Of a stretch of 62,231 nucleotides of DNA, positions 10,165-18,686 are shown piece after piece. The position numbers were made by a program, and so were the translations under genes. The stretch's first letter is position 1, and every line of letters begins with the position of its first letter. The notes below the pieces were generated by a model that was not told where the DNA came from, made no database searches, and was given only the letters and a program-made list of their open reading frames with translations. Where the stretch lies: contig JASLPR010000056.1 of assembly GCA_030744875.1 (NCBI GenBank), forward strand, positions 1 through 62,231, given 5' to 3'. The DNA comes from Chloroflexota bacterium. GTDB lineage: Bacteria > Chloroflexota > UBA11872 > VXNJ01.

Positions 10165-11121
10165 GTGTTGCCCTTGCAAGACTGGGAAATATCGGCCGCC
10201 GACTTCTATTTCGCCGTGCCAGTCGCCGACCTTCCGCTGGGCACCGTCGCCGCGGTGGATTTCTACATCCGCACTCGCGACGGCCACTCTGTCTATCTGA
10301 CCGCGGGCCAGGATCTCAACGACTCGATCCGGCTGGCGCACGACAGTTCCGGAATCGAGTCGCTGTATGTCCAGTCCGGCAAGGCCGGGCCGTATGTGCG
10401 GGGGGCATTTGAGGCCGCCCGCCTCCTGTTGGATTCGACGGATGCACCGGCCGCCAAACGCGCCCAGGCGATTCGCACGTCCGCGGGCGCGACCGCGCTG
10501 CACCTGGTCCACAACCCCGGGGTGCAGTCGTTCCAGATGGCCCGGGAGATTACCGAACTAACCGTGGCCGAGACGCTTGAGTCTCCTGAATCGCTCACCG
10601 CGCTGGTCAAGATGACCTACGTCGACCAGGAGCTTCACTACCACCTGGTCAATTCGTCGATCTACGCCATCGCGCTGGCCGGTCCGCTGGGCATCAGCGC
10701 CCCAGATTGCCTGATCACGATTGGTCTGGCGGGGCTGCTCTACGACCTCGGCATGGCCCGCATCGCGCGCCGCACGAGCACCGGCGATCCCGACCTCGAC
10801 CCGGTGGTCCGGCAGCACGTCTACATTGGCCGCGATCTCATTCAGTCCGTGCCCGGCATCTCCCGCGAAGTCCGCGACGCCGCGGTCGGCCATCACGAAC
10901 GCTGGGACGGCGGGGGCTACCCGGCTGGCCTGCAGAGCACGCGCATCCCACTGACCGGCCGTATCTGTGCTGTGGTCGATACCTTCGACGTGCTCACCAC
11001 CACGGTACCCGACGGCACCCCGGTGGGCGCGTTCCAGGCCCTGCGCGCGATGAGCCGCGATATGCCCGGTCGCTTCGATCCGGCGCTGCTCCGCGCGCTT
11101 GTCGTCGGGCTCAGCGCCTAG
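10165..11121 (+). CDS. HD-GYP-like protein with degenerate HD (YD)
   Basis: GLAGLLYDLGMARIARR; VGHHERWDGGGYPAGLQSTRIPLTGRICAVVDTFDVLTT. Confidence 0.85.
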   Translation: MLPLQDWEISAADFYFAVPVADLPLGTVAAVDFYIRTRDGHSVYLTAGQDLNDSIRLAHDSSGIESLYVQSGKAGPYVRGAFEAARLLLDSTDAPAAKRAQAIRTSAGATALHLVHNPGVQSFQMAREITELTVAETLESPESLTALVKMTYVDQELHYHLVNSSIYAIALAGPLGISAPDCLITIGLAGLLYDLGMARIARRTSTGDPDLDPVVRQHVYIGRDLIQSVPGISREVRDAAVGHHERWDGGGYPAGLQSTRIPLTGRICAVVDTFDVLTTTVPDGTPVGAFQALRAMSRDMPGRFDPALLRALVVGLSA

Positions 11122-12372: not shown

Positions 12373-12783
12373 ATGAACGACGAGCCAGGCACCAACGACG
12401 TGGAAGATCGATTCCACCGGGGGATGGCCGACGTTTATCAGCAGGCGAAGGACGAGTGCGATTACACCGCCACACGTTTCTTGCAGATGCTCGCCGAACA
12501 GGGAGGCCTGGGGACGGCCAGGACATTGCTGGGCGATTCAAAGACTTCGGACGGTTTCACTGCACTGAGGAAATGTGGCTGCCTGCACCTGACCGTCGAA
12601 AACCTTGTGCTCCGGTCTGAGTTTCAGGAATTGTTCACACCAGCCGAGCGCGAGACTGCTCTGAATCGTTTGAAGTTGCGTGGCTTCGATCCCGCCGGCC
12701 TTGCGACCGGCCAAGAAATGAAAGTCCCGAAAGGGTTCAGTCCCACGGCTCCCGACCGTCGGTGCACTCCGGCCAGCGTGTGA
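12373..12783 (+). CDS. Conserved hypothetical protein
   Basis: QAKDECDYTATRFLQMLAEQGGLGTARTLLGDSKTSDGFTALRKCGCLHLTVENLVLRSEFQELFTPAERETALNRL; 3' end overlaps mmsA. Confidence 0.55.
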   Translation: MNDEPGTNDVEDRFHRGMADVYQQAKDECDYTATRFLQMLAEQGGLGTARTLLGDSKTSDGFTALRKCGCLHLTVENLVLRSEFQELFTPAERETALNRLKLRGFDPAGLATGQEMKVPKGFSPTAPDRRCTPASV

Positions 12784-14254
12784 TCACGACCTTTGCGTCG
12801 GTGAAGAACTGCACCGCGTTGCCGCCCTGCCCGTGCAGGTCGCCGAAGAACGACGCCCTGCGGCCACTGAACGGGAAGAACGCCATCGGCGCGGCAACGC
12901 CGACGTTCACGCCGACGTTGCCGATATCCACTCGCTGCGCGAACTCCCGCGCCGCTCCGCCGTGGCTGGTGTAGATCGACGCCGCGTTGCCGAATTCCGA
13001 CGCCTCGATGGCGGCGATCGCTTCGTACAGGGTGTCCATGCGGATCAGGTTCACCGCCGGTCCGAACACCTCTTCCCGTGCGATCTTCATGTCCATCGTT
13101 ACGCCCTCCAGCAGCGTCGGCCCCACCCAGTAGCCGTCCGGGTGACCTTCCACCGTCGCGCCGCGGCCGTCGACGATCACCGTCGCGCCCTCGGCCTCCG
13201 CCCCATCCACGTAGCCGACGATCCGCTCCTGGGCTTCCCTGGAAATCACCGGGCCCATCCCGGTCGCCGGGTCGAGCCCGTCGCCCAGCGCAATCGCCTC
13301 GGTGGTCGCCACGAGGCGTTCCTTCAGCGGTTCGTAGGCTTCACCGACGGCGATGATGTTCGATCCGGCCAGGCAGCGTTCGCCGGCACAGCCGAAGATC
13401 GAGCCCATCATGTTCGACACTGCGGCGTCCATCACCGCGTCGGGCAGTACGACCAAGAAGTTCTTGGCTCCTCCCTGACACTGGGCGCGCTTGCCGTTGG
13501 CGCTCGCCGCCGCGTACACGCTCCGGGCCACCGGCGTTGACCCTACGAACGACACTCCCTGGACCTGCGGGTGCGCGCAGAGCGCCTCGCCGACTTCCGT
13601 GCCCCCGTGGAGGATCGTCAGCACGCCGGGCGGGAATCCCGCTTCGAGAACCAGCCGGGCGAGCTCCATCTGGCTCAGCGGCGCCTGCGGCGAGGGCTTG
13701 ATCACGTAGCTGTTGCCGGTGGCCAGCGCGTAGGGCGCGAACCACCAGGGCACCATGCTGGGGAAATTGAACGGCGCAATCTGGGCGAAGACTCCGAGCG
13801 GCTCGCGGATCATCGTCTCGTCGAAGCCGGCCGCGATGTCCGCCGCGAAGTCGCCCATCTGCAACGACGGTATCCCGGCCGCCATCTCGACGTTTTCGAG
13901 GGTGCGGATCACTTCGCCGCGCGATTCCTCCAGAGTCTTGCCGTTCTCGAGTGTGCACAGCCGCGACAGGTCCTCGAAGTTCTCCTCGATCAGCCGGTGC
14001 AGTCGGAACAGGTAGCGCGCGCGATTCACCGCCGGGACTTTGCGCCACTCCAGGTACGCGGCCTGAGCCGCCGCCAGCGCCGCGTCCACCTCGGCTGGCG
14101 TTGACAACGGCACCGTGGCGATGGTTGCGCCGGTGGCCGGATTCGTCACCGCCACCGTCTCGGTCGCCTGTGACGGGACCTCTTCCCCACCGATCAGGTT
14201 GGCCAGGGGCGTGTCCGGGGAAATGCTTTCGAGGATGGAACCGTTGCCGCTCAT
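12737..14254 (-). CDS. mmsA: CoA-acylating methylmalonate-semialdehyde dehydrogenase
   Basis: GGAKNFLVVLPDAVMDAAVSNMMGSIFGCAGERCLAGS; PMAFFPFSGRRASFFGDLHGQG. Confidence 0.95.
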   Translation of the reverse strand: MSGNGSILESISPDTPLANLIGGEEVPSQATETVAVTNPATGATIATVPLSTPAEVDAALAAAQAAYLEWRKVPAVNRARYLFRLHRLIEENFEDLSRLCTLENGKTLEESRGEVIRTLENVEMAAGIPSLQMGDFAADIAAGFDETMIREPLGVFAQIAPFNFPSMVPWWFAPYALATGNSYVIKPSPQAPLSQMELARLVLEAGFPPGVLTILHGGTEVGEALCAHPQVQGVSFVGSTPVARSVYAAASANGKRAQCQGGAKNFLVVLPDAVMDAAVSNMMGSIFGCAGERCLAGSNIIAVGEAYEPLKERLVATTEAIALGDGLDPATGMGPVISREAQERIVGYVDGAEAEGATVIVDGRGATVEGHPDGYWVGPTLLEGVTMDMKIAREEVFGPAVNLIRMDTLYEAIAAIEASEFGNAASIYTSHGGAAREFAQRVDIGNVGVNVGVAAPMAFFPFSGRRASFFGDLHGQGGNAVQFFTDAKVVITRWPECTDGREPWD

Positions 14255-14429
14255 CAGGGTCGCTCCCGCTCCCCGCCGCGAGCCACGGGGTATTGGTTCT
14301 TGTTGCGCGGCGAAGGTAGCAGGTCGGCCACCATTCTGGAAACATCACCGCCGACATTGACGCCGGGGCTTAACATAAGGCCGAAACACGGAGCGTTGCG
14401 CAACTGAGGGGCCCGATCGGAGGCCGGCG

Positions 14430-14858
14430 ATGACGACCGACGACGGACGGCTGCGCTATACCTTCGCATTCTGTACCTACCGGCGCGGCTGCGTCATCGA
14501 GGACGCCATCGGCAGCCGGCTCCAGGAACAACTATCCCGCCTCACCGCCGAATTCGACGCTGACCTGCTGGATATCGGTTGCGCCGCCGACTCGGTCTTG
14601 ATCCGCGTTGCCGCCCCGCCCACCATCGCCCCGACGGATCTGGCCCTGGCGCTCAAGGAAGGCTCCGAACGCACCCTCCGCGCCGAGTTCCGCCAGTTGC
14701 GCGCGGTCACCGCCCTCTGGACCTCCGGCTACCTGGTCACCACCGACCCGCGACCCGATTCCGATCGTCTCGCTCGCTTCGTGGAGGAGGAACGCGACCA
14801 CGAGTCCGGCTTGCGGGTCATCATCACCGCCCCGCCGTGGACTTCCACGTCTCGCTAG
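14430..14858 (+). CDS. IS200/IS605 TnpA (Y1)-like protein lacking HUH and catalytic Tyr
   Basis: YTFAFCTYRRGCVIEDAIGSRLQEQL...LLDIGCAADSVLIRVAAPP...LKEGSERTLRAEFRQL..ALWTSGYLVTT...LARFVEEE follows the TnpA fold order. Confidence 0.65.
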   Translation: MTTDDGRLRYTFAFCTYRRGCVIEDAIGSRLQEQLSRLTAEFDADLLDIGCAADSVLIRVAAPPTIAPTDLALALKEGSERTLRAEFRQLRAVTALWTSGYLVTTDPRPDSDRLARFVEEERDHESGLRVIITAPPWTSTSR

Positions 14859-15715
14859 TCGTCCGCTTCGCCGAGGGCCTCGCCCACAAACTCCACCACC
14901 GCCGCCACCATCTTCTCCCCGGCCAGCAGCGCGTGGTCGTTGTGGTCAGCCCCGGCGATCTCCAGCAGGCGCTCGCCCCTTCCCGCCGCCGCGAAGAGCC
15001 GCCGGCTCTGCTCCGGCGGGACCAGGCTGTCCGCCGTCCCCACGATCACCAGCAGCGGCGCGATCACCCGACCGATCCGGTCGATCGACGGGAACCGATC
15101 CTTCAGCAACAGCCCTGAGAGCAGGAACGGGTAGTGCGTTCCGGCCATTTCCACCAGCGAGGTGAACGGCGACCGCAATATCAACGCCGCCGGCGGGCGC
15201 TCCCGGGCAAGCCCCACCGCCACCGCCGCACCCAGCGACTCCCCGAAGTACACGATCCGCTTCGGGTCCACATCGGCCCGGTCTTCTAGGTACCGCACCG
15301 CCGCCCGGGCGTCCACCGCCAGGCCCTCCTCGGTCGGGCTGCCTGGATTTCCGCCGTAGCCGCGATAATCAAACAACAGGACGCCCAGCTCCGCCGCCGC
15401 CAGCGCCTTCGCCAGCGGCGCCCGCAGGGCGCGATTGCCGCCGTTGCCGTTGAAGACCAGCACCGCCGCGGACACCGTCCGTTTCTTCCCGGGTTGTTGG
15501 AACGCCGGCAGGAACCACCCGCCCAGTTCCAGCCCGTCCTCCGTCACCAGCACCGCCTCCTCCCCGCCCGGCAGCAGGGCCGCCACCGGACCCGGCGCGC
15601 CGCCGGATGGGAAATAGATAAGGCTCCTTTGCAGCAACCAGGCCAGCAAAAGCACCAGCGCGACCACGAGCGACACAGCCGCCACCGGGACCAGCCACCG
15701 CTCCATTCCCGGCAC
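14855..15715 (-). CDS. Alpha/beta hydrolase
   Basis: AAVLVFNGNGGNRALR; LLFDYRGYGGNPGSPTEEGL; YFGESLGAAVAVGLA. Confidence 0.9.
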   Translation of the reverse strand: MPGMERWLVPVAAVSLVVALVLLLAWLLQRSLIYFPSGGAPGPVAALLPGGEEAVLVTEDGLELGGWFLPAFQQPGKKRTVSAAVLVFNGNGGNRALRAPLAKALAAAELGVLLFDYRGYGGNPGSPTEEGLAVDARAAVRYLEDRADVDPKRIVYFGESLGAAVAVGLARERPPAALILRSPFTSLVEMAGTHYPFLLSGLLLKDRFPSIDRIGRVIAPLLVIVGTADSLVPPEQSRRLFAAAGRGERLLEIAGADHNDHALLAGEKMVAAVVEFVGEALGEADD

Positions 15716-16926: not shown

Positions 16927-17679
16927 ATGGCGCTGCAACTCGACACCATCCAGGAGACCGGGGAACAGGTCGAAGCCGCCGCCCGCGAACTCGGTGCCGA
17001 AATCTACGGCGTCGCCTCCGTCGAAACCTTCAACCGCCTCTTCCCGCGCAAGCCCTCGCCCGACAAGTTCGTCGAAGGCGCCCGCTCGGTCATCGTCGTA
17101 GGCCTGCCGTTCAGTCCCGAAATCCAGGACACTATCGCCAGGCCCTGGATGGCCGAAATCCACCGCGAGGCCTCCATGGACGCCGCTATGGGCGATTCCG
17201 CCGAGCAGCACCCGCCGCCCGGCGCCGAGCGCTACTACCACGGCCCGGAAAACGACATGCTGACCCACGAAACCCACATGATCGCCTATCGCCTCGCCGC
17301 CCAGATTCGCGCCGAGGGATACAGCGCCTTCTACTTCCCCGACGTCAAGATCGAGCCTCGCTTCAAGACGGCGCCCTTCTACTTTCTGCCCACGATGTTC
17401 GCCGCCGGCATGGGCCAGCTGGGCATGAACTGCTGCATCCTGACTCCGGAGTACGGCCCGCGCTTTCGGGTGACCGCCATCATCACCGATCTCGAGTTGC
17501 CGGCCGGCGAGCCAATGGAAGAGCGCAACTACCCGGGCTGCGAGGACTGTAAGGAGTGTGTCAAGCGCTGCCCCAGCCACGCCATCAACGGCAAGTACTG
17601 GAAGAACGTCTTCCGCTGCTCCGACTACGGCTGCTCCAGCACCTGCCTCAGCGTCTGCCCGGTCGGCAAGGAGAACTAG
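16927..17679 (+). CDS. QueG/reductive-dehalogenase-like 4Fe-4S protein
   Basis: FAAGMGQLGMNCCILTPEYGPRFRVTAIITDLEL...CEDCKECVKRCPSHAI...CSSTCLSVCPVGKEN. Confidence 0.75.
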   Translation: MALQLDTIQETGEQVEAAARELGAEIYGVASVETFNRLFPRKPSPDKFVEGARSVIVVGLPFSPEIQDTIARPWMAEIHREASMDAAMGDSAEQHPPPGAERYYHGPENDMLTHETHMIAYRLAAQIRAEGYSAFYFPDVKIEPRFKTAPFYFLPTMFAAGMGQLGMNCCILTPEYGPRFRVTAIITDLELPAGEPMEERNYPGCEDCKECVKRCPSHAINGKYWKNVFRCSDYGCSSTCLSVCPVGKEN

Positions 17680-18686
17680 CGGCCGGCCTCCAATCGCCCG
17701 GTGGCCTTCAGTACCCGCAGCACGTTGAGAGTGATCATCTTGCTCGGCTCGCGGCGGCTCCAGTCGGTGATTTCCACACCTGACCCCTTGAGGCCCGGCC
17801 GCCGCCAGTGGTATCCCTCCGGCCACCAGCGCCCGTCCTGGCGGCGCTTTCCGGCGATCAGATCCACGGCCTCGTCGACGCGCGCGTCCGCCAGCGGCCC
17901 GAACCGACTCAGCACCAGCAGCCCCGGCAGAACGTCGTAGCGCCAGTAGGCGGGATAGCGCAGCTTTAGCTACGCCGGGTTGATGACCTCCCCGGTGTGA
18001 TCCGAGCGAAACATCCGGTGACGCAGAAACAGCTCTGCCGCCCGCCCCGCCGTCGCCCGGGTCGCCTCGTCGCCGGTGGCCCGGTGGAACTCGGTCAGAC
18101 CCCAGATCGGGATCAGGCTCTCGTTGAACGACGAATGCCGCGCCTCCGGGTTCACGTCGCAATTCCAGCCGCAGTCCGGCCATTGCCACTCGACCAGCGA
18201 CAGTGCCAGCAATTCCGCCCGGGGGTCGTTGGCGATGCCCAGCCGGCAGGCCACCGCCAGCACGTTGCCCTCCTGGGACGCGCAACGGCGCACCCGCCCG
18301 TCGATGGTCGGGATTCGCTTCCGGTGGTGGACGCTCACGTAGAAATCCAGCACCGGGTCGAGCATCGCCAGCGCCGTCGGTTCGCCGGCGGGCACGCCCA
18401 GCTCGACCGCCGACACCAGCCGCCAGTGGGCGCCCTGGAACTTCTGGTAGCCGCCGGCGACGCCCTGCCCGTCGGGATGGTCCGGCCCCAGCAGGTCCTG
18501 CGGGTGGCGGTCCTTGCCGATCTCGTCGTGCGCTTGCCGTACCTCCGGCTCACCGGCCGGGCGATCCAGCAGATCGGTCAGCGCTAGATAGCGCACCGCC
18601 GGGTCGGCCGCTTCCAGCAGCCACTCAATTGTCGGGGCGTTCCGACTCAGCCGGGGCAATTCCGGATCGGCTCTCCTTGTCCGCAC
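17676..18686 (-). pseudogene. Alpha/alpha-toroid (prenyltransferase/squalene-cyclase-like) protein with in-frame TAG
   Basis: ...FLRHRMFRSDHTGEVINPA-(TAG, complement 17970..17972)-LKLRYPAYWRYDVLPGLLVLSRFG... same frame on both sides. Confidence 0.75.

Follow-up and report, generated by a model that had tools for sequence, protein, structure and literature searches.

A Y1_Tnp-fold protein of Chloroflexota without catalytic residues: retained protein or decaying remnant

Results

P0001 has the fold of an IS200/IS605 transposase

The window, which is the whole 62,231-nt stretch of DNA that was analysed, contains an ORF, P0001, whose 142-residue product has the fold of a Y1 transposase and none of its catalytic residues. 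The fold and the loss of these residues are established. That P0001 is a retained, non-enzymatic protein derived from a class 1 Y1 transposase is a reading to which we give an even chance. The positions of the ORF and of the features around it are listed in Table 1.

Table 1. Features of the P0001 locus, numbered from the first nucleotide of the window.
Feature	Position	Strand	Basis or remark
ORF P0001, 142-aa Y1_Tnp-fold protein without catalytic residues	14430..14858	+	ORF reading, domain and structure searches
GGAGG, Shine-Dalgarno-like	14419..14423	+	6 nt before the P0001 ATG, read directly
Codons S55-V56-L57 at the HUH position	14592..14600	+	Alignment with relatives
Codons F117-V-E-E-E121, in place of the Y-x-x-x-Q of TnpA (nucleophile, third metal ligand)	14778..14792	+	Alignment; Y---Q motif, PMC6006769
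Gap upstream of P0001 to the divergent ALDH gene	14255..14429	+	Promoter, hairpin and TGTAGAT-repeat searches negative
Aldehyde dehydrogenase (ALDH) gene	12737..14254	-	Aldedh E 2.6e-137; divergent from P0001
Alpha/beta hydrolase gene	14855..15715	-	Convergent with P0001, 4-nt stop overlap (CTAG)

The homology of P0001 to Y1_Tnp is beyond chance. Residues 8–119 matched the Pfam Y1_Tnp domain (E 1.9e-11) and a PHROG transposase was matched with an E of 4e-14, while the NCBIfam model of IS200/IS605 TnpA scored 54.9 bits (E 1e-14) against a cut-off of 55. A sequence search of the PDB returned 2ec2 (E 1.7e-8) as well as 2f4f and 2a6m. The AlphaFold2 model of P0001 had a pLDDT of 83 and a pTM of 0.76; when it was submitted to Foldseek, ranks 1–29 were all IS200/IS605 TnpAs, among them 2fyx (rmsd of 2.6 Å, TM 0.77/0.84). 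Overall, the Pfam, AlphaFold2 and Foldseek results bear out the Y1_Tnp fold that a sequence-only reading had proposed. In trees, the branch of P0001 was long (3.1–3.6 changes per column), and owing to this length its placement among TnpAs is not fixed.

The frame of P0001 runs from an ATG to a TAG with no internal stop and aligns to the profile of HUH-bearing TnpAs with 0 gaps across 115 columns, in agreement with the earlier description of the ORF as intact. Its codon-position GC (0.65/0.53/0.84) is host-like, a measure without power to separate a retained gene from a decaying remnant. According to a profile search, P0001 is present in a single copy in its genome. Neither a sigma-70-like promoter match nor a TGTAGAT repeat was found in the upstream gap. 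The earlier remark that several neighbours are visibly decayed appears to apply to one case, a minus-strand gene at about 17676–18686 that lies in two adjoining frames (17970–18686 and 17676–17915) and is probably frameshifted; the nearest neighbours, encoding ALDH, the hydrolase and BrkB/YihY, look intact.

P0001 lacks the catalytic residues and the positive charge of TnpA

The catalytic columns of P0001 were compared with those of 31 relatives, 30 of which have the HUH motif; L036, a member of the family of dead TnpAs described below, passed the motif filter. The two His residues are replaced by S55 and L57, the Tyr by F117 and the third metal ligand, Gln, by E121. The Y---Q motif and its role in TnpA have been described (PMC6006769). 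The alignment thus confirms the replacement of HUH by S-V-L and of the catalytic Tyr by Phe, and the claim that all catalytic residues are gone extends to the Gln ligand as well. P0001 retains 0 of 4 catalytic columns versus 7 of the 12 further columns with at least 87% conservation, a contrast with a one-sided chance of about 0.07 by our own arithmetic. Other conserved residues that were lost are H11, G77, S80 and G107.

P0001 is acidic, with a pI of 5.05, a charge of −4.4 and one Lys. By contrast, nearly all relatives with catalytic residues have a pI of 8.8–10.9, the exception being L080 at 6.3. Inverted-repeat and folding searches around P0001 yielded no convincing REP-like palindrome or IS-end hairpin: two inverted repeats were all that the searches gave, namely a palindrome of 13 nt within the ORF and a loose pair within the hydrolase gene. 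Upstream sequences folded no more stably than their shuffled versions (z of 0.4 to 0.8 for the 5′ region, DNA parameters), and the one lower fold (z −2.1) lay inside the hydrolase coding sequence. The low pI, the single Lys and the fact that neither REP-like nor IS-end hairpins were found around the gene weaken the suggestion that P0001 binds ssDNA or hairpins. The Foldseek match list also included 2xo6, the solved complex of the ISDra2 Y132F mutant with left-end DNA; the replacement of Tyr by Phe alone is therefore compatible with DNA binding.

No orthologue of P0001 was found

We searched for orthologues of P0001 at several depths. None was found in 40 genomes of the class, no match exceeded 33% identity in 400 genomes of the phylum, and a GTDB scan with P0001 as the sole query returned no relative. 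Phages, plasmids and viral contigs contained no orthologue and only distant TnpAs, those annotated being mostly labelled IS200/IS605 transposase. Synteny gave no orthologue either: the hydrolase gene is kept in G003 and G004 at 56–57% identity, where other genes adjoin it and P0001 is absent. A weak tblastn match of P0001 (L111, E 9e-4) overlaps two coding genes at their ends; we regard it as a chance match. The absence of orthologues under purifying selection is the outcome that the sequence-only reading had itself associated with a mere remnant. Of its proposal of a domesticated transposase, the fold, the catalytic loss and the intact frame stood, and no orthologue of P0001 under purifying selection turned up in the genomes searched.

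A separate family of dead TnpAs is associated with clpE

Proteins without HUH were among the best relatives of P0001 and led us to a separate clade of dead TnpAs, detected at over 100 bits in 15 of the 400 Chloroflexota genomes and supported at 100/100 in the tree (loci L061–L073, L045, L132–L141 and L144). In these proteins HUH is replaced by R-V-Y, or by A-V-F in G049, the predicted structure is the TnpA fold, and the tail carries an AT-hook-like RGRPRK, identified by eye and matching no entry of the domain library. Named records with the gene are mostly Ktedonobacterales, with others as well. The gene was present in 10 of the 11 genomes of one family; the eleventh genome is 58% complete and its ClpE gene lies 250 nt from a contig start. 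Three genomes of this family contained a second, weaker match (35–42% identity).

In all 15 genomes, the dead-TnpA gene is directly upstream of, and on the same strand as, a gene encoding a ClpE-like ATPase, a label that refers to the N-terminal zinc finger architecture and the Clp/Hsp100 domain matches. ClpE-like genes occur in 43 of the 400 genomes, 27 of them in another family, and no Y1-like gene was found upstream in the 18 of these 27 cases that were inspected. Pairwise dN/dS values (NG86) within the dead-TnpA family were 0.04–0.19; many dS were near or above 1, making these values rough, and the two closest pairs (dS of about 0.5) gave 0.04 and 0.10. Together, these data indicate that the AT-hook-tailed dead TnpAs are under purifying selection and fixed in the clpE operon. 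The general idea of a retained dead TnpA thus holds in this clade.

This family resembles a domesticated regulator. Several of the dead-TnpA genes are preceded by an inverted repeat, TGTAGAT-N11-ATCTACA, which is frequently degenerate and comes after a −10-like TATAAT (in L067, for example, roughly between −100 and −14 relative to the ATG), and most of the genes have a further half site, TGTAGGT or TGTAGAT, close to the start codon. The strict pattern occurred once each in 4 of the 16 genomes searched, each time upstream of the dead-TnpA gene; a reversed control pattern gave 1–3 matches in seven other genomes. By analogy with CtsR, the dead TnpA may be an autoregulator of the clpE operon, with TGTAGAT/ATCTACA as its candidate operator. 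CtsR is not known to be related to transposases. The analogy is functional only and concerns the AT-hook family alone, a candidate repressor encoded beside a Clp ATPase gene: CtsR is the repressor of clp genes in Bacillus (PMC12634643). A dead Y1 TnpA associated with clpE was not described in the literature searched, whose coverage was partial. Among the proteins compared, the closest catalytic-residue-bearing relative of the family by HMM score (115 bits) was L074, a TnpA from a Chloroflexales MAG in which HUH and Tyr are intact and which shares the APPTLAP motif.

Discussion

The fate of P0001 is open to several explanations. In the reading of a retained protein, the ancestor would have been a class 1 (IS200/IS605-type) Y1 transposase; with the loss of its element ends and of every metal-binding and nucleophile residue, what remains would now be a single-copy chromosomal gene whose frame selection presumably still keeps. 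The product would be a non-enzymatic scaffold or binder, not a transposase, and probably a dimer like other TnpAs. Because P0001 is acidic, its partner would more likely be a protein, or its contact with nucleic acid limited, than general hairpin binding. A single gene, as opposed to an element, is indicated by the single copy, the lack of a TnpB over the cut-off in this genome and the lack of terminal hairpins. The competing explanation is decay: P0001 would be what is left of an IS200-type element, its frame still open by chance. We place this serious possibility a little short of even. In a simulation of neutral decay, a sequence came down to the profile score of P0001 after about 0.3 substitutions per site, and about 6–14% of frames were stop-free at that level, indels being ignored. 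This share of open frames is not decisive but is compatible with a remnant; the lack of orthologues among the genomes searched and of a promoter match upstream, and the loss of positive charge, favour one; the long branch and the loss of H11, G77, S80 and G107 also fit relaxed constraint. Against a remnant and for retention stand the confident fold, the 115 columns without an indel or stop, the Shine-Dalgarno-like site and the host-like codon composition. If indels arise at 5–10% of substitutions, an assumed ratio, intact frames become rare. Retention is further favoured by the loss of every catalytic column while most other conserved columns were kept, and by the clear precedent for retained dead TnpAs in the phylum.

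Two other explanations carry less weight. P0001 could belong to the AT-hook/ClpE family as a divergent protein whose tail was lost and whose gene changed place. Both are chromosomal Y1_Tnp proteins of one phylum without HUH, pairwise matches to the family are among the best of P0001, and grouping the two was not rejected (AU p 0.40). However, P0001 scored 66 bits with the profile of HUH-bearing TnpAs versus 55 with that of the dead family, and it has none of the AT-hook-like tail, the clpE operon, the upstream inverted repeat and the dN/dS evidence that mark the family; indeed, a search of its genome gave no ClpE-like gene over the limit used. Moreover, its replacement residues, S-V-L and F, differ from those of the family, which are R-V-Y and, when read without gaps, mostly R. 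Membership is unlikely, and the two probably represent independent catalytic losses. Far less probable still is that the locus works as a transcript and not as a protein. This has a precedent in the quiescent IS200 of Salmonella, whose 5′tnpA RNA is a functional product (PMC12594629), and would suit a protein without catalytic residues, but folding of the 5′ region does not surpass that of shuffles, and both the frame and the fold of the protein have been preserved. As a tentative extension, somewhat improbable as a whole, the Y1 fold may have been co-opted on more than one occasion in Chloroflexota for a non-catalytic protein, with P0001 as an orphan case and the AT-hook family as a former transposase that autoregulates a ClpE stress operon by way of the TGTAGAT/ATCTACA repeat.

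A Y1 protein kept after the loss of all catalytic residues would, if true, have been domesticated in another way, one comparable with that of TldR. TldR proteins are nuclease-dead. They are regulators derived from TnpB (PMC13418256). The AT-hook/clpE family, with its defined operon and candidate operator, makes the question directly testable.

P0001 resembles the class 1 IS200/IS605 TnpAs (ISHp608, ISDra2, 2fyx) in fold, size, motif order and its ungapped profile match, and differs from them in having no HUH, Tyr or Gln ligand, in being acidic, and in being a single copy without element ends. With TnpA_REP/RAYT proteins (class 2; PMC6006769, PMC8266576) it shares the Y1 fold and the status of a single-copy chromosomal Y1 gene, as in domesticated cases; TnpA_REP is presented in PMC8266576 as the first domesticated prokaryotic transposase. 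However, RAYTs retain both HUH and Tyr (Y---NP) and occur in association with REP palindromes; P0001 has neither, and the Foldseek match to the RAYT 4er8 was weak (E 5e-4). Sequences were included in the survey of the TnpA_REP superfamily only if they had both motifs, HUH and Y (PMC6006769). The sole other Y1_Tnp match in the genome of P0001 is a RAYT-like fragment (L011) on contig C51 of G000, at about 10945–11106, in which HUH is present and the frame appears to be shifted.
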